A DNA stretch of 64,000 nucleotides, from the NCBI RefSeq assembly GCF_016592155.1, contig NZ_AP024237.1, positions 1,054,001 through 1,118,000 of the forward strand, written 5' to 3'. Below the pieces are notes generated by a model, which saw only the letters and a list, made by a program, of their open reading frames with translations, was not told where the DNA came from and did no database searches. Below are positions 40,263-48,188 of the stretch, in pieces (the stretch's first letter is position 1; the number at the start of each line of letters is the position of its first letter). The DNA comes from Mycobacterium heckeshornense. GTDB lineage: Bacteria; Actinomycetota; Actinomycetes; Mycobacteriales; Mycobacteriaceae. The position numbers and the translations under genes are program-made.

Positions 40263-40338
40263 GGGGCTATGGCGCAGTTGGTAGCGCGACTCGTTCGCAT
40301 CGAGTAGGTCAGGGGTTCGAATCCCCTTAGCTCCACCA
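40263..40338 (+). tRNA. tRNA-Ala, anticodon CGC
   Basis: A complete cloverleaf is seen. The acceptor arm GGGGCTA pairs with TAGCTCC. The D arm contains GCGC and AGTTGGTA. The anticodon arm ACTCG/CGAGT encloses loop TTCGCAT (anticodon CGC). The T arm AGGGG/CCCCT encloses TTCGAAT. The CCA end is encoded at 40336-40338. It follows the GlpR-like gene, as tRNA-Ala does in M. tuberculosis. Confidence 0.97.
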
Positions 40339-40362
40339 GCGAAGCCGACCGATCGGGCCAGG

Positions 40363-40710
40363 CTATTCCGGCTGGTTCAACTCGACCAAGTTGCCGAATG
40401 GATCGTGCAAAAAAGCCTGATGCCCCGCACCGGGGACGAACGGGGTGCGGTGCACTTCGACGCCGTGCTCCCGCAGGTCGCTGACCGCGGCCTCGATGTC
40501 GTCGACCCGGATCGCGAAGTGGTTGGCGCCGTGTGGCTGGCTCTCCGACTCCATTAGGTGCACCTGCTGACCGCCGGCGTCCAGCCAGTACCCGGGGCCG
40601 AGGTCGGGACGCGGCAACGGCGTCATACCGAGCACATCGCGGTAGAAGGCGAGACCCTGCTGCGCGTCGGCGACGCAAATGGCGACATGGTGCACACCGG
40701 CTGGTTTCAT
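40363..40710 (-). CDS. VOC-superfamily (glyoxalase-like) protein
   Basis: Small protein of 115 residues from ATG 40710 made of two beta-alpha-beta-beta-beta halves. The first half starts VHHVAICVADAQQGLAFYRDVLG with WLDAGGQQVHLMES. The second starts ANHFAIRVDDIEAAVSDL and ends HDPFGNLVELNQ. His and Glu at the usual metal positions are present. The family includes lyases, dioxygenases and resistance proteins, so the reaction cannot be named. No operon partner. Confidence 0.86.
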   Translation of the reverse strand: MKPAGVHHVAICVADAQQGLAFYRDVLGMTPLPRPDLGPGYWLDAGGQQVHLMESESQPHGANHFAIRVDDIEAAVSDLREHGVEVHRTPFVPGAGHQAFLHDPFGNLVELNQPE

Positions 40711-40807
40711 CGCTCAATTCTGCCTCGGGTCTGCCTCGGGTCGCCCATTCCGGTATCAACTACGTATATGCGTTGATCGAGGGTCGGGACTCCGAGGAGA
40801 TGGGAAC

Positions 40808-41428
40808 ATGACGGCTGCCCAACGGGAACGCGCCGCGCTCGTCGAGACCATGCGCAGCGTCGGGCCGGACGCGCCCACCCTTTGCGAGGGGTGGACCACT
40901 CGCGACCTCGCCGCACATCTGGTGATCCGGGAACGACGGCCGGACGCCGCTCCCGGCATCGTGATCCCGGCGCTGGCGTCCTATACGGCCAAGGTCCAAA
41001 AGGAGGTCACCGAATCGAGCGACTGGACTGAACTGCTGGACAAGATTGCCTCTGGACCGCCGGTCTTCTCGCCGCTCAGGTTGATCGATCCGCTGGTCAA
41101 CCTCAACGAGATGTTCATCCACCACGAAGACGTCCGGCGTGCCCAACCGGGTTGGGAACCGCGGACTCTCGACGCCGCTACCGTCAAGGCTTTGACACGT
41201 CCGCTGCCACTCATGGCACGAATGGCGATGGCGAAAATGCCCGCTCGGGTGGCACTTCGGACACCGGACGGCAAGACGGTAGTGACCCTTGGCCGTGGAC
41301 CGGCAGTCACGGTCACCGGCGCGCCGGAGGAACTGCTGCTCTTCGCAGTCGGCCGCGACGCCCGGGTCAACTTCGACGGCGCCGACGACGCCGTCCGAGC
41401 CGTCCGCAACACGCGACGAGGCTTGTGA
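40808..41428 (+). CDS. DinB/mycothiol-dependent maleylpyruvate isomerase-like protein
   Basis: The product has 206 residues from ATG 40808, preceded by GAGGAG. The N-terminal DinB-like four-helix region has LCEGWTTRDLAAHLVIRERRP with a metal-type His. The second conserved site NEMFIHHEDVRRAQPGW gives further His ligands. The C-terminal part resembles the sterol-carrier-like end of the TIGR03083/TIGR03085 families. These often act in mycothiol-dependent chemistry. The substrate is unknown, and the upstream in-frame start at 40679 overlaps another gene and is not family-like. Confidence 0.82.
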   Translation: MTAAQRERAALVETMRSVGPDAPTLCEGWTTRDLAAHLVIRERRPDAAPGIVIPALASYTAKVQKEVTESSDWTELLDKIASGPPVFSPLRLIDPLVNLNEMFIHHEDVRRAQPGWEPRTLDAATVKALTRPLPLMARMAMAKMPARVALRTPDGKTVVTLGRGPAVTVTGAPEELLLFAVGRDARVNFDGADDAVRAVRNTRRGL

Positions 41429-41921
41429 GCTGGCAAGCCCGTGCGTCGATAACGGCCTCACCCTGGCTTGCCGGCGGCCACCAACCGCAGTGCGCGCGGG
41501 CCGGTCGGTCTTGAAGATTTCCTCCGCTCGGCGATTACCGGAGACGGCAATATGTCAGTGCCAAAGGGTGCGGCCTAAAGGAGGCGCACGACCGTCCTGC
41601 TCTACATCGCCGCGCTGATCCCCATCGGCCTGGTGCTCTACATCCTGTTAGGTAAACGGCCCCGCCATTATGGGCGTGATCAACGACCTGGGAGTCAGGT
41701 CGCCCGCCTGATGCGGGGAAGTCTAGGTAATCAGCAGAGGCGATCTTGCGGATAACTGCCGGGTGCTGATCGGCCCCATCGCTGTGCGACAGTCCGCTCG
41801 GAGAGCAGCTGCTGTCATCACTCTCTGCGTCGGGCAGTGTACTCCAGTCCACCAGTCTCGCCCGCACGTCGACAGTCCGGCCCTTCCTGAGAACTGTCGA
41901 TGACATGGTTAAACTTCGCAG
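41429..41921. other. 493-bp gap with a possible small membrane ORF
   Basis: No convincing gene is seen. On the plus strand 41588-41755 is open for 55 codons and encodes VLLYIAALIPIGLVLYILLGK, a good single membrane helix, behind a strong AAAGGAGG at about 41576-41583. The codon at normal spacing is ACG rather than ATG, GTG or TTG. It is either a lost-start remnant or a real small protein with a miscalled base. The minus-strand frame at 41535-41906 looks like random coding-strand composition. Confidence 0.4.
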
Positions 41922-42581
41922 ATGCTGCGATGGACGCGCACTGCGGTAGCAGTTGGGGTAGCCGCCGTTCTAGTTGGGTGCAGCAAAGGCTCTATCATCG
42001 AGTCTCGTGGCGACACCACCACGCCTGCACCGGTAGGCCAACCGGTGGACGCAAAAGAAATCGACTCGCTTGTGGTCCCGATGGACCAGGTGCCGGGTAC
42101 CGGCGACAGCCTTCGCCACAGCACTGTCGACAGCCATCCATTGAGTTCACCATCACCTGCAGGCAGTTGTTTGTTAGCGAAACTCCCTGCCGGTCATGTT
42201 GCGGTTTTTGGCAATGACACGATCGCGTTCCGCAACATGAATTACGTCGGGTTCAGCAACGTCTACGTAGCGCAAGCAATCGGGATCTATGCTGACGTTT
42301 CGAACGCCAATACCGTATTCGAGCAGTTGATTAACGGGTTGCAGGCATGCAAGTCCGACGGCGGCGAGGTTTCTGTCGATTCAATCGCACCGAACAGGGC
42401 GATGTGGCATGCGCACGCATTCTCTCCTGTTAAGGGAACCGACGAAACGTCGTTTGCCACCGACGCGCGCACAGTCAAAAACGTGGTTTTCACCGTCACG
42501 GCAGGGCATTTCGATAATTCACAACAGATCGCAGCTTCCACCGCGGATCAGATCGCAGCGAAGATCAACAAACCTCTTTAA
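41922..42581 (+). CDS. Lipoprotein with PknH-type sensor domain (LppR/LpqQ-like)
   Basis: The product has 219 residues from ATG 41922. The signal peptide MLRWTRTAVAVGVAAVLVGC ends in a lipobox (VLVGC, Cys20). The mature part has two widely spaced cysteines and the segment AIGIYADVSNANTVFEQLINGLQACKSDGG, which recalls the extracellular PknH_C/sensor-domain lipoproteins common in mycobacteria. It would sit on the outer face of the plasma membrane. The stop overlaps the convergent NlpC/P60 gene by 4 bp. Confidence 0.85.
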   Translation: MLRWTRTAVAVGVAAVLVGCSKGSIIESRGDTTTPAPVGQPVDAKEIDSLVVPMDQVPGTGDSLRHSTVDSHPLSSPSPAGSCLLAKLPAGHVAVFGNDTIAFRNMNYVGFSNVYVAQAIGIYADVSNANTVFEQLINGLQACKSDGGEVSVDSIAPNRAMWHAHAFSPVKGTDETSFATDARTVKNVVFTVTAGHFDNSQQIAASTADQIAAKINKPL

Positions 42582-43816
42582 CGCAGGCGTCGCACACGCA
42601 CCAGGTTGCCATTCGGCATCGTCGTGCGATGGTCGAGTTCGACCGGTAGGCCCGATTCAGGCGCGTTCAGAATGACGCCAGGAGCGACGTAGATCCCGAC
42701 ATGTTCGGCGCTGCCAGGACCGTAGTAAATCAAACCACCCGGCTTGAGCGGCGCTCCCCCCGCCACGCTGGTCAGGTTGGGTGAACCGAGCTGGCCGCTT
42801 GTGCCCTGGCCGATGTCCACACCTGGCCGCGCGTGCGCTGCTGCATACTCCGTCAGGCCACTGCAGTCGAACCCGATGCGTTGGTCGTCGCGGTAAATGT
42901 GCGCGCCCCCGGGAGGATTGACGGGATCGCCACTGAGCGTTCCTTTACCTGGACCATTCAGCCCTTTTCCACCCCAGGCGTACGACGTGCCCAGCTGGGC
43001 TGCGCCGAAACCGACCATTTTCAGGCCGGGATCGCTGACCGCATCGGGATTGGGTAAGTATCCTCGCTGGTCGGTCGGAAAATGCGCCAGATAGTTCTGC
43101 CATGCTTGGTCGCGCGCAGGCCCAGGTCCGCCGGTATAACCAGGAGGGTTGTCGGCAAGTAAAGGGTTCTGCCAAGACTTCTTCCACTGATCGGGATTGA
43201 AGCCGGGCTGCCATTTCACGCCGGGATCGTTGACATCTGTGACACCCGGGCGTTCTTGGCTGCCAACGTCTCTCGGCTGACCGCTGTCCTGACCGCCGTG
43301 CTCGTCGAGTGGGATTTCACCGACCGAGGCGCGGATGGCTGTGGCTAGTTCGTGGTCGGCGGCGTGGGCGCGCACCTTCAACTGATCCAGTTCGGTTTGC
43401 AACGCTTGCTGTTCGGCGGCAACCGCGATGGGGTCGAGCCCAATACGTGCCGTGTCGGGAATCTGGACGCGCCAGTCCGGTGTGATGGTCCACAGGTTCG
43501 AGTCGGCGACTTCTTTTATCCGCTGTGCCTCGGACCGGCACCAGCGCACATCGGCTTCGGCGCGGCCCACCGCCGCGGCGACCTGCTTGGATTCTTGCCC
43601 ATTGGTTTCGATGTCGGCGCGGGCCTTGTCCATATCGGCCTGGAACGCTGCCCCCGCTTCGCCCTGCCAGTGTTCGAGCACCATCTTCTGAATCGTTTGC
43701 AGGTTGTCGCCCAAGGTGTGCAACGTTTGGGCACGGTTGTTGGCGATCTGAAAAACTTGATGCACCGCTGCGGGGTCCCATCGCAGCAGAACATCGTCGA
43801 AGGTCAGCGGCTCCAA
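42578..43816 (-). CDS. WXG-type N-terminal domain fused to NlpC/P60 hydrolase
   Basis: The product has 412 residues from TTG 43816, four bases after the stop of the preceding WXG gene. Residues 1-160 are helical with a central WQG turn (Trp50) like WXG100 proteins. A polar linker rich in Asp, Gly and Pro follows. The C-terminal NlpC/P60 domain has catalytic Cys318 in IGFDCSGLTEYA and His372 in SAEHVGIYVAPG. No signal peptide is seen, so export by a type VII (ESX) system together with the neighbouring WXG protein is the simplest reading. It is probably a peptidoglycan endopeptidase or a secreted effector. Confidence 0.85.
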   Translation of the reverse strand: MEPLTFDDVLLRWDPAAVHQVFQIANNRAQTLHTLGDNLQTIQKMVLEHWQGEAGAAFQADMDKARADIETNGQESKQVAAAVGRAEADVRWCRSEAQRIKEVADSNLWTITPDWRVQIPDTARIGLDPIAVAAEQQALQTELDQLKVRAHAADHELATAIRASVGEIPLDEHGGQDSGQPRDVGSQERPGVTDVNDPGVKWQPGFNPDQWKKSWQNPLLADNPPGYTGGPGPARDQAWQNYLAHFPTDQRGYLPNPDAVSDPGLKMVGFGAAQLGTSYAWGGKGLNGPGKGTLSGDPVNPPGGAHIYRDDQRIGFDCSGLTEYAAAHARPGVDIGQGTSGQLGSPNLTSVAGGAPLKPGGLIYYGPGSAEHVGIYVAPGVILNAPESGLPVELDHRTTMPNGNLVRVRRLR

Positions 43817-43820
43817 CTGT

Positions 43821-44132
43821 TTAGAAGCCGGACTCGCCGGCCAGCGTGAGCGCCTGTGCCGATGCGGCCTCGTTTTGCACGTAGCGCTGGGCCACCTCGA
43901 TCACGTTGTTGCTGATTTCGGCCACCGTGATCTTGTGGTGGGAATGCTGAAGCTCCCAGCGTGCCGCCAGCTCACCTAGTGCTTGCTGTGAGGCACCGAT
44001 CCAACCCGGGGCAGCTTCGGCCAGCTCGTCATCATGGCGGATGAAACCGATAGCGGCCTGCTGGAGGGCCGCGGACATCTGGTCGGTCCCGACCTGGAGC
44101 ACAGCAGGCTCGACGATCAACCCATCGGCCAT
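43821..44132 (-). CDS. WXG100-like type VII secretion substrate
   Basis: The product has 103 residues from ATG 44132 with GGAAGG/AGGTGG upstream. Two helices are separated by the turn PGWIGAS (Trp44-Gly46), and the second helix ends with RYVQNEAAS, a YxxxE form of the general YxxxD/E type VII export signal (Tyr84, Glu88). It has no signal peptide. It is the first gene of a two-gene unit with the WXG-NlpC/P60 protein. The two are likely to pair as a helical heterodimer. ESX genes themselves are not in the window. Confidence 0.85.
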   Translation of the reverse strand: MADGLIVEPAVLQVGTDQMSAALQQAAIGFIRHDDELAEAAPGWIGASQQALGELAARWELQHSHHKITVAEISNNVIEVAQRYVQNEAASAQALTLAGESGF

Positions 44133-44355
44133 GGGGGCCACCTTCCAAGGGACTGCTGCTCGGCGAGAGCATAAACCGCCGGTATCCCGGCGCAAGTCAC
44201 AATATCTTCGGAACAGGGTCAGGCAATCGACCCCACCTGTCGAGCCGGGCTGACCATCACCCCATGGGAAAAATGGAGTCTTGCAGGATGATCACGGTGG
44301 TCGCAGCATTAGTGTCGGATGGCATGTCGGACCATCCCGGGTTTCGTGCACACCT

Positions 44356-45430
44356 TCTGTTGAGGGTAAGGATGGCACGAAGGCAACGAGGTCCGACCAG
44401 GACGCGAAGGCCGAGGCGGTCCGGCTGGTCCGGGCGCATCGCGACGAGTACGGCACTGACTGGGCGGTGATGCGGGCCATCTCGGCGCGGCTGGGGATGA
44501 GCGCGGGGAGCCTGCACAAGTGGGTGCGCCAGGCAGAGATCGACGACGGCAAGGCCGCTGGGGTGTCGACGGTGGAGTGCCGGGAGTTGCGCCAAAAAGA
44601 ACCGTGAGCTTGAGCAAACCATCGAGATCCTGAAGGCGGCAACGGGTTTGTCGCGCGGGAGAACGACCCGCGACACCGTTGATTTGTGACTTCAGCGTCG
44701 AGCATCGTGCCCGGTTTGGGGTCGCTGCAATCTGCCGCGCGCTGTCTGAGCATAGCTGCACGATCGCCCCGAGACCTTCTACGCCCAGCAGGCTCGCCCA
44801 CCATCGAAACGGGCCTTGTCGGACATGACGGTCACCGAGATCCGGCCGGCTACTACACCCCCGATGCTGACCGGTCGCGGTAAGGCCGAGTCGCTCTACG
44901 GCGCGGCCAAGATGTGGGCGCACCTGCAACGACGGGGCATCCCGGTGGCTAAATGCACCGCGGAGCGCCTCATGCGGGCCAACGGCTGGGCCGGTGTGCG
45001 GCGGGTCCCTGATCTGGTGGATCGCAAGTTGGCTGTCGATGCCCCGAATCGGCTGCTGGTAGCCGATTTCACCTACGTTCGCCTGGTCACCGGAATGTTC
45101 GTCTACACCGCGTTCGTGGGTCGACGCCTATGCCGGGCAGATCTTGGGCTGGGCGTGCTTGATAGTCAAACAGGCCTGGTTCGTCGAATCGGCGATCCGC
45201 CAGGCCGCGGCTGCTGCGGACCCGTGAAGGCCACCCGTTGGCGGGGTTGACGCTTCCTCACTCCGATGCCGGGTCGCAGTACACGTCGGTGCACTGCTGT
45301 GAAGCGATCGTGTTCGCCGGGATCAAGCCCTCGATTGGAACGATCGCAGATGCCGACGATAATGCGTTGGCGATGATAATGATTGGTCTCTCAAAGACCG
45401 GCTGGGAACTGTTGAAACCACCCGCAAGGC
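44356..45430 (+). mobile_element. Decayed IS3-family insertion sequence
   Basis: Both transposase parts are recognisable but broken. The OrfA part has KAEAVRLVRAHRDEYGTDWAV and SAGSLHKWVRQAEIDD, with a frame change at a run of A near 44594-44598 before NRELEQTIEILKAATG. The OrfB part (about 44690-45430) includes SLYGAAKMWAHLQRRGIPV, the catalytic-Asp region VADFTYVRL and HSDAGSQYTSVH. Several further frame changes occur between these blocks. The segment that should carry the catalytic Glu reads DDNALAMIMIGLSKTG instead of an AEST-type sequence. The element is inactive. Inverted-repeat ends could not be defined. Confidence 0.85.
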
Positions 45431-45768
45431 CTCCCGGCGCGAGGCGCCGCGAAATCGCCAGGGCCGCAAGCCACGTCGAGCAATCGGTCAGCTCCCGACA
45501 AACGCAGCGCAGCGGCGGCCCGGCGCCGTTCGGCCGCGTGGTGACGTCGCTGGCAATGTAGAACGCGATCGGAGGCCCCCGCCGTTCATACACCGTCACC
45601 ATGAACGGGCTGGTCACCGCTCGCTGAAGCCGGACCTGCCGCGCTCCTACTACTCGCGCGCCCGGATGGGCGAGTCCTTGCCGCATGCGCAGACGACGCC
45701 ATAGCCTAGGCCACATTGGACCGCGGCCGGGCGCCGATGGGAGTGCGGTCGTGGCGGGTCCGCAATGA
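45431..45768. other. 338-bp region between IS remnant and acetyltransferase gene
   Basis: It holds the ragged end of the IS3-family remnant and no convincing gene. A minus-strand segment around 45540-45620 reads MVTVYERRGPPIAFYIASDV and looks somewhat protein-like, but it has no recognisable family or clear limits. The promoter of the acetyltransferase gene should lie here; no specific motif is certain. Confidence 0.4.
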
Positions 45769-46779
<1,011 letters not shown>

Positions 46780-46825
46780 CGGCGTGTCGGCGAAGCACCC
46801 TGGCCCTCGCGTGGTATCAACGGGC

Positions 46826-47497
46826 ATGCGGTTCGCGTCGGCTGTCACGGCGGTCATGCTGGCAGCGGCATGCGCTCACCCAGCCGGGTCAGCCCGCAGT
46901 ACCTGGCCCACCTCGGCCGCCGTCAGCCAGATGCGGATCACCCCGGCCAACATCAAGAGGGTTACCCGTGACCTGCCCCGCGGTTACGAGGTGACCGGCC
47001 TGGCCGCTGCGACGGTGCCCGCAGCGATCTGGGGTCTGGGGGCGCACTGGGCGGCACATCCGGCTCAATGCGCGACGCTGGCCGACCCTCTGCAGGGCCG
47101 TGGCGAATCCGGGCAAGGCGTATCGGGGTCCGGTTCCGGTGGGATTGTCTATGCGGTGGTCACGACGCTCCCAGCACAGTCGGCGCCAACAGAGCATCCA
47201 ATCATGTCCCAATGCCGGCAGTGGATTATGGCGACACACCATGCGGCGACAAGGGTGCGCCTCGTCGACCCGCCACACATCGACGGCATCCAAACCGTGG
47301 GGATGGCAAGCGAGACCACCACCTCGGTCGAAGGCGGAAGTGAAATCGCTTTTTACGCTCGAACATTCGCCGCGTATCTGGGCGACTATTACGCGTTCAC
47401 AGTGCTCGTCACCGACCCTGGTTCGGCGTATTCGCCGTTGCCGCCGCAATTCGCAGCCGATCTGTTGGTCAAAACGGTGGGCGCGTTACGTGGCTGA
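46826..47497 (+). CDS. Putative lipoprotein, DUF5642-like
   Basis: The product has 223 residues from ATG 46826, where a signal peptide MRFASAVTAVMLAAAC with a lipobox-like LAAAC begins; a GTG at 46784 would add 14 residues. The mature region has several Cys residues and the pattern RDLPRGYEVTGLAA, typical of DUF5642-type secreted mycobacterial proteins. It overlaps the next, paralogous lipoprotein gene. Function unknown. Confidence 0.8.
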   Translation: MRFASAVTAVMLAAACAHPAGSARSTWPTSAAVSQMRITPANIKRVTRDLPRGYEVTGLAAATVPAAIWGLGAHWAAHPAQCATLADPLQGRGESGQGVSGSGSGGIVYAVVTTLPAQSAPTEHPIMSQCRQWIMATHHAATRVRLVDPPHIDGIQTVGMASETTTSVEGGSEIAFYARTFAAYLGDYYAFTVLVTDPGSAYSPLPPQFAADLLVKTVGALRG

Positions 47498-48188
47498 CGG
47501 TCGCTGGTTGGGTAAATTCACCACGGTGATCAGAGCGGTGCTCACGCTTGGATGTGTGTGTTGGCTCGCCGCATGCGCATCCGCCGGACCGGCCGATTCC
47601 GCGTCGGCCGATATCGCCAAAGTTGCCGGGGTGAGATCGAGTTTTGGACCCGAGTTCCATGTCACCAACATCGCACCGACCGGTATCGACCCGAAGTTGT
47701 TGGCGGGGCAGAAGCTGCCGGGCGGCCTGAAGTTCGAGCCGCCGAACTGCGCCAAGGTCGCGGCAGCCCCGGCGGTGCCGCCTGGCCTGCAAGGCAATAT
47801 GGCCGCCGTCTCTGCCGAGGGTGAAGGCAACCGCTTCATCGCGATCGCGGTCGAAACCTCCCGGCCGGTGCCGGTTAACGATCCCGGAACCGGCTGTCAG
47901 AAGGTGGGATTCGCTGGCGGCTCAGTTCGCGGCGTCATCGAGGTTGTCGACGCCCCGCGCATTGCGGGCACCCGGACGCTTGGCGTGCACCGGATCCTGC
48001 AGACCGTCATCGACGGGCAAACCCGCACCGGCGAGGTCTACAACTACTCCGCTCATTTCGGCAACTACCAGGTGATCGTCACGGCCAACCCGCTGGTGCT
48101 TCCCGACAAGCCAGTGGCGGCAGTCAATACCCAACGTGCTCGCGAGCTGCTCACCACCGCAGTGGCCGCGGTCAAAAACTCGCCTTAG
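47490..48188 (+). CDS. Putative lipoprotein, DUF5642-like (second paralogue)
   Basis: The product has 232 residues from GTG 47490, overlapping the preceding stop by 8 bp; GTG 47526 is an alternative that starts directly at the signal peptide. The signal peptide ends CVCWLAAC, giving a lipobox Cys. The mature part has two further cysteines (FEPPNCAKV and DPGTGCQKVGF) that could form a disulfide. It resembles M. tuberculosis Rv0999 and the upstream gene, so the two form a tandem duplicate pair. It converges with the AlkB-like gene with a 4-bp overlap. Confidence 0.84.
   Translation: MADGRWLGKFTTVIRAVLTLGCVCWLAACASAGPADSASADIAKVAGVRSSFGPEFHVTNIAPTGIDPKLLAGQKLPGGLKFEPPNCAKVAAAPAVPPGLQGNMAAVSAEGEGNRFIAIAVETSRPVPVNDPGTGCQKVGFAGGSVRGVIEVVDAPRIAGTRTLGVHRILQTVIDGQTRTGEVYNYSAHFGNYQVIVTANPLVLPDKPVAAVNTQRARELLTTAVAAVKNSP

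Follow-up and report, generated by a model that had tools for sequence, protein, structure and literature searches.

The locus at 41922-44132 of the analysed stretch of Mycobacterium heckeshornense DNA (64,000 nucleotides of contig NZ_AP024237.1, hereafter the window) is probably a three-gene antibacterial toxin cassette, consisting of a small WXG partner, a toxin with an NlpC/P60 tip and an immunity lipoprotein. In the proposed mechanism, the small WXG protein would pair with the WXG N-domain of the effector and contribute the YxxxE signal; the pair would leave the cell through one of its ESX (type VII) secretion systems. Judging from its family, the NlpC/P60 tip may then cut peptidoglycan stem peptides in the wall of a neighbouring bacterium through its Cys-His site. 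The lipoprotein would shield the producer and its kin, presumably by binding the cognate tip while anchored on the outer side of the membrane, at the enzyme's site of action. The initial annotation had described an orphan type VII pair, which proved too narrow, as the pair is part of a cassette from a family of modular toxins.

The two genes of the pair lie on the minus strand and are separated by four bases, with the effector gene downstream. The small WXG100-like partner (43821-44132, minus strand, ATG start) has 103 residues and 78 homologues, and carries a WIG motif at residues 44-46 (44003-43995, minus strand) and the export-type motif YVQNE at residues 84-88 (43883-43869, minus strand). 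The effector, a polymorphic toxin of 412 residues (42578-43816, minus strand, TTG start), is built from a WXG N-domain, a linker and an NlpC/P60 tip. Its N-terminal trafficking domain (residues 1-175; 43292-43816, minus strand), common to proteins with other tips, contains WQG at residues 50-52, and the tip (residues 262-412; 42581-43033, minus strand) holds the active-site residues Cys318 and His372 (minus-strand codons 42865-42863 and 42703-42701). The effector scored 38.8 bits against the Pfam NlpC/P60 family (PF00877, cut-off 23) and thus belongs to it; Cys318 and His372 are invariant across 32 aligned relatives, and in alignment they coincide with the corresponding Cys and His of 8aud and 2xiv, two NlpC/P60 proteins of known structure. 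Both proteins scored below the Pfam WXG100 cut-off (PF06013, 27.3 bits; effector 25.6, small partner 18.5), and the WXG assignment therefore rests on homologues. WxG is kept in 77/78 homologues of the small partner, 69/78 of which have YxxxD/E past residue 60, a conservation that places the combined pattern beyond chance, and WxG is found near the N-terminus in 31 of the 32 aligned relatives of the effector. No YxxxD/E occurs anywhere in the 412 residues of the effector itself. The gene arrangement, both WxG motifs, the export signal and the Cys/His site are all as initially annotated.

A classical signal peptide on the effector was considered and not seen, again as annotated. The highest 11-residue Kyte-Doolittle mean in its first ~50 residues is 0.85, compared with 2.87 in the lipoprotein, and with such low N-terminal hydropathy no Sec signal is apparent; the TTG start is supported by the relative P0113, which begins MEPLTFDDV in register. 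A profile built from the 78 homologues of the small partner, applied to the 300 bases preceding the effector gene, detected a partner in 64/83 related loci and in only 14/28 loci with NlpC tips, half of which the profile misses. Co-export by an ESX system encoded elsewhere had also been proposed. EccCa had no match inside the 64-kb window and four matches over the cut-off elsewhere in the genome, and presumed co-export of this kind is still the most fitting interpretation.

The cassette sits between a tRNA-Ala gene (40263-40338, plus strand), at the edge of a variable interval, and the Pat gene (interval 40263-45768), and is adjoined by transposase remnants (44281-45250, plus strand; phrogs matches at 6.5e-4 and 2.8e-17). 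None of its three genes was found in 14 relatives (tblastn, E<=1e-8; stretches of 9.5-12.5 kb, mostly upstream of Pat), and the tRNA-Ala to Pat interval spans ~1.2 to 8.6 kb in the five relatives with both ends in view. With such differences in length, the interval counts as variable between mycobacterial genomes. A plasmid or phage origin of the cassette was also considered and rejected: there was no plasmid DNA match, and within the window the 3' end of the tRNA occurs without a duplicate. The lipoprotein gave no tblastn match to phages and plasmids, and no phage genes were recognised among the neighbours examined (part of the window). Behind the gene for Pat, a cNMP-dependent acetyltransferase, lie two tandem DUF5642 genes (46784-48188), the second with a lipobox-like start; they are not linked to the cassette.

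The NlpC/P60 enzymes RipA and RipB are house-keeping hydrolases, and this precedent would suit an effector that is a self-acting wall-remodelling enzyme and opens peptidoglycan for the ESX machine or for growth, together with a lipoprotein that anchors or regulates it rather than conferring immunity. A comparable role is described for EssH of S. aureus, a wall hydrolase dedicated to the type VIIb system (PMC13059805, available sections). Such a role is unlikely for an accessory cassette that has no counterpart in the stretches of 14 relatives upstream of Pat. The build of the protein family argues in the same direction, with an N-domain joined to TNT, GH19 and lipase-like tips and a tip that differs between close relatives.

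The N-terminal ~170 residues of the effector are up to ~60% identical to mycobacterial proteins with other C-termini. Our locus sample comprised 13 contigs (L049-L061; three labelled as uncultured actinobacterium), two further sets of 18 and 60 regions, and the window; removal of eight duplicate loci before counting (L049, L129, L130, L132, L133, L134, L147, L148) left 29 NlpC-tip and 55 other-tip loci. According to Pfam, the tips of the latter are TNT (PF14021) in 8 cases, GH19 (PF00182) in 6, Abhydrolase_8 in 3 and other in 38. No tip domain over cut-off was found in the 37 of these 38 that were scanned, the truncated L168 having been left out, and weak ADP-ribosyl cyclase matches in L171 and L181 fell below the cut-off. 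A scan of genome contigs with a single protein had given no match, whereas an alignment-based scan did give matches. Four further proteins of the window's own genome are related through the N-domain and end differently; the N-domain identity to the window is ~47-51% for two of them (L031, L032) and ~30% for the others (L033, L034).

Exchange of the tip is seen most directly in M. heckeshornense JMUB5695. Its protein P0010 is identical to the effector at 153/158 positions over residues 18-175, and at 0/20 over residues 178-197, with a sharp drop after residue ~175. The P0010 tip is an NlpC/P60 domain 36% identical to the window tip, its nearest matches being the tips of P0029 and L037. The small partner P0121 differs from that of the window at 1/103 residues, and the genes for P0010 and P0121 presumably sit together, at the same place as the window cassette. 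At the level of sequence, modular architecture, exchange of the tip between close relatives whose N-domains are nearly identical, and linkage of NlpC tips to lipoprotein genes are established for this family. NlpC tips of the window type also occur on N-termini other than the window's WXG type (L053, P0020, P0021, P0022), two of which (P0020, P0022) carry PF22905. At L055 (2220-5844), a tip of the same type is found on a protein without a WXG match, and the neighbours resemble by eye a membrane-fusion protein and an ABC transporter, an arrangement that may point to another export route. In M. chelonae S00154 (L057, 1600-2845) the gene for the toxin is broken into two ORFs that overlap, and the lipoprotein gene looks whole.

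The third gene of the cassette (41922-42581, plus strand) encodes a candidate immunity lipoprotein of 219 residues with the lipobox LVGC (Cys20, codon 41979-41981, plus strand). The protein is a member of the Pfam PknH_C family (PF14032; 32.8 bits, cut-off 27), and its gene is convergent with the effector gene, the 3' ends overlapping by four bases (42578-42581). Initially it was named only as possibly an immunity gene; the idea is well supported by the neighbour and identity tests described below, which make the convergent PknH_C lipoprotein the likely cognate immunity gene.

For the neighbour test, lipoproteins were called with a simple gene caller and a script for lipobox pattern and hydropathy rather than SignalP, and loci with no 3' gene in view were dropped (L054 and L146 with NlpC tips, L168 with another tip). 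Among the 27 remaining NlpC-tip loci, the first 3' gene encodes a predicted lipoprotein in 20; it has another signal peptide in two (L036, L050), the lipoprotein is the second called 3' gene in one (L137), and four lack an adjoining lipoprotein (L055, L059, L060, L061). A lipoprotein is next in 5/6 loci with GH19 tips (L045, L162, L165, L179, L187; exception L185) and in 3/3 with Abhydrolase_8 tips (L033, L046, L047), although those at L162, L187 and L033 are 364-539 bases off and their link is therefore looser. The corresponding counts are 0/8 for TNT tips and 3/37 for other tips without a recognised domain, against a background of 81 predicted lipoproteins in 986 genes across all these loci. 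Lipoprotein adjacency thus differs between NlpC tips (20/27) and TNT plus unknown tips (3/45; Fisher p 3e-9), as well as between envelope-type tips (28/36) and TNT (0/8; p 7e-5), p-values that overstate independence because the loci are related by descent.

All four NlpC exceptions lack the window-type N-domain by profile: L055 has no Pfam WXG match, L061 is a 280-residue ORF without an N-domain profile match, and the WXG head of L059 and L060 is weak and of another kind, no small partner being called upstream of either. A missing N-domain match is not by itself the mark of the exceptions, as L053, L057, L137 and L141 miss it too and yet have a lipoprotein; the N-part of L057 is a separate ORF. 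In a control set of NlpC/P60 loci without a WXG match, 0/3 readable loci had a lipobox in the next gene, a thin control given that four of its eight loci were on the other strand and uncalled and one had no next gene. In viral contigs with NlpC tips, many of them near-redundant, the 3' gene had a lipobox in 26/32 loci (32/47 examined, with the 15 loci L221-L235 left out), as scored by a script that chose among neighbouring ORFs and favoured one with a lipobox. On re-scoring with stricter criteria, the chosen ORFs passed in 26/31, L205 stopping at the contig end. At L210-L213 and L219 the script picked another ORF and these loci were not counted; the immunity gene annotated in their twin L240 begins, on visual inspection, with the lipobox-like AAC. 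Within the tip clade of the window (window, L035, L050, L051, L053, L057), the lipoprotein gene is convergent in 6/6 loci and ends between -3 and +5 bases from the toxin end. Such an orientation is uncommon among immunity genes, a point against this assignment.

It is very unlikely that the lipoprotein gene stands there by chance or for regulation, with the true immunity gene missing or located elsewhere. PknH_C domains do occur elsewhere in mycobacteria, and this genome has six matches; with six copies in 4.96 Mb, chance adjacency to the toxin gene would be improbable, and a profile built from 10 lipoproteins, that of the window among them, finds the same adjacency at 15 NlpC loci. Five of these loci are independent of the profile (L036, L137, L143, L144, L145). 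Pfam PF14032 was over its cut-off in all four lipoproteins sampled (window, L036, L051, L144), and a PknH_C match lies ~2 kb away at the control locus L048.

A second lipoprotein family, with the signature IWPA...ITNDHVV, is present at eight NlpC loci (L131, L135, L136, L138-L142), of which L131, L135 and L136 helped to build its profile; it is the lipoprotein of the M. abscessus prophage cassettes. Comparison of the two families with hhalign found no profile relation beyond the lipobox, and a common origin accordingly has no support at the profile level. None of the seven second-family members scanned matches a Pfam family over the cut-off, and a PDB sequence search with the window lipoprotein returned no relative at E<=1. 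At L136 (6592-7689), a single NlpC-tip toxin is followed by two second-family copies in tandem, an arrangement reminiscent of immunity gene arrays. The service of one tip superfamily by two lipoprotein families without detectable relation is a further point against the effector being a self-acting wall-remodelling enzyme.

Lipoprotein and tip identities are correlated across the 15 PknH_C loci (Mantel r 0.77, p 0.0002). With 13 loci (excluding L053 and L057), r is 0.78 for the tip and 0.53 for the N-domain, and partial Mantel coefficients are 0.69 for the tip given the N-domain and 0.24 for the N-domain. Four loci (L036, L052, L058, L053) are natural swaps. The N-domain of L036 is 69% identical to that of L056, whereas its tip is 70-73% identical to those of the L137/L143-L145 group, and its lipoprotein shares 49% identity with that of L137 versus 21% with that of L056. 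L052 has an N-domain 56% identical to that of the window, but groups with L056 and L058 in both tip and lipoprotein; L053 combines the tip type (65%) and lipoprotein type (40%) of the window with an N-terminus missed by the N-domain profile. The exception is L037, with a tip nearest those of the window and L035 (49%) and a lipoprotein nearest that of L056 (38%). In these comparisons, lipoprotein identity mostly tracks the tip, more than the N-domain, and the guard gene seems to travel with the cutting end.

Bacterial peptidoglycan is the substrate of the NlpC/P60 family, which argues against a toxin directed chiefly against eukaryotic hosts or amoebae, in the manner of CpnT/TNT, whose lipoprotein would only guard the producer. 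Peptidoglycan is also the stated substrate of the NlpC/P60 clade in the available text of PMC3482391. What speaks for a host target is the similar layout of CpnT in M. tuberculosis, which is an ESX-5 substrate, has EsxE-EsxF as partners and is encoded next to an immunity factor (PMC8092274, available sections). Sister tips of the GH19 and lipase-like types, with lipoprotein neighbours, weigh on the other side, and a mainly eukaryotic target appears quite improbable.

The results may also be read jointly, in a form that we put forward as speculative and rather doubtful. Envelope-attacking tips (NlpC/P60, GH19, alpha/beta-hydrolase) would pair with lipoprotein immunity and cytosol-attacking tips with cytosolic immunity, PknH_C lipoproteins would be an unrecognised immunity family against peptidoglycan-cutting tips, and the sensor domain of the kinase PknH may be of an immunity type that recognises wall hydrolases or their products. 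To our knowledge, the ligand of this sensor domain is not settled. Our search, with most subscription papers and preprints outside its scope, found no literature linking PknH_C lipoproteins with immunity to toxins or formulating such a compartment rule. PknH_C lipoproteins would then be a testable immunity family for wall-cutting T7SS toxins in mycobacteria, and the step from tip target to immunity compartment a simple guide to the genes that confer immunity to other ESX toxins. Should this reading hold, it would have consequences for the question of ESX action from one bacterium on another and for the ligands of PknH-type sensor domains.

Both WXG-NlpC/P60 polymorphic toxins, in M. abscessus prophage records, and extracytoplasmic T7SS immunity, in TelC-TipC and TslA-TilA, are known already. 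Zhang et al. 2012 (PMC3482391), in the text available, list NlpC/P60 toxins with T6SS, PVC and TcdB/TcaC, not with T7SS, and name no immunity partner. The closest systems are the three-gene cassettes of M. abscessus prophages, described as a WXG protein, a polymorphic toxin and an immunity protein, with some of the immunity proteins noted as lipoproteins and the immunity proteins stated to co-vary with the toxin domain (PMC8092301, PMC10654092, available sections). They are termed PEST, for phage-encoded ESX-secreted toxin, and their role is called unclear in the accessible part of PMC10654092. The same source describes poor transformation of M. smegmatis with two PEST cassettes that share the layout of the window cassette, have other tips and lack the immunity gene; the two toxins have no recognised tip domain, and this result therefore has no bearing on NlpC tips. 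WXG-NlpC/P60 fusions, for which the initial annotation suggested a survey, are annotated as polymorphic toxins in the prophage records, three of which (MW584206, MW584184, MW584191) read 'RipA-like peptidase domain and WXG motif'.

These PEST toxins share an NlpC/P60 tip with the window effector and 25-35% identity over most of the protein, and the immunity gene of the phage records has a lipobox in 6/7 cases by script and in the seventh, OQ417964, by eye. With regard to the PEST2 N-domain superfamily, the profile from the 32 aligned relatives, which include M. abscessus-group proteins, matches the N-domain of prophiGD05-2 at 5e-29, whereas the window N-domain alone matched a single mycobacterial phage, prophi91-4 at 1e-5, and not prophiGD05-2. 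Like a PEST cassette, the window locus has a small WXG100 gene beside the toxin (43821-44132), a toxin with a WXG N-domain and a variable C-terminal toxin domain, and a candidate immunity gene that, judged by sequence comparison and with the exception of L037, co-varies with the toxin domain. It differs in that its lipoprotein belongs to the PknH_C rather than the IWPA...ITNDHVV family, and in that the candidate immunity gene is convergent, whereas in PEST the immunity gene is co-directional. It is also not prophage-encoded, having transposase remnants and no phage genes among the neighbours examined, and is thus PEST-like rather than PEST, because it lies outside a recognisable prophage.

Three better-studied systems share parts of this design, as described in the available sections of their sources. 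In TslA-TilA of S. aureus (PMC10730906), a lipoprotein likewise neutralises a T7SS toxin outside the membrane, but the toxin is a lipase with the reverse domain order and the lipoprotein is of the DUF576 family. CpnT/TNT-IFT with EsxE-EsxF of M. tuberculosis (PMC8092274) resembles the window cassette in combining an ESX substrate, Esx partners and an adjacent immunity factor, and differs in its NAD+ glycohydrolase tip and its two Esx partner genes. TelC of S. intermedius (PMC6193138) is a lipid II phosphatase rather than an NlpC/P60 enzyme, and its neutraliser TipC has an N-terminal transmembrane segment; nevertheless, as proposed for the window cassette, a T7SS toxin active in the inner wall zone is countered by a membrane-anchored, outward-facing protein.
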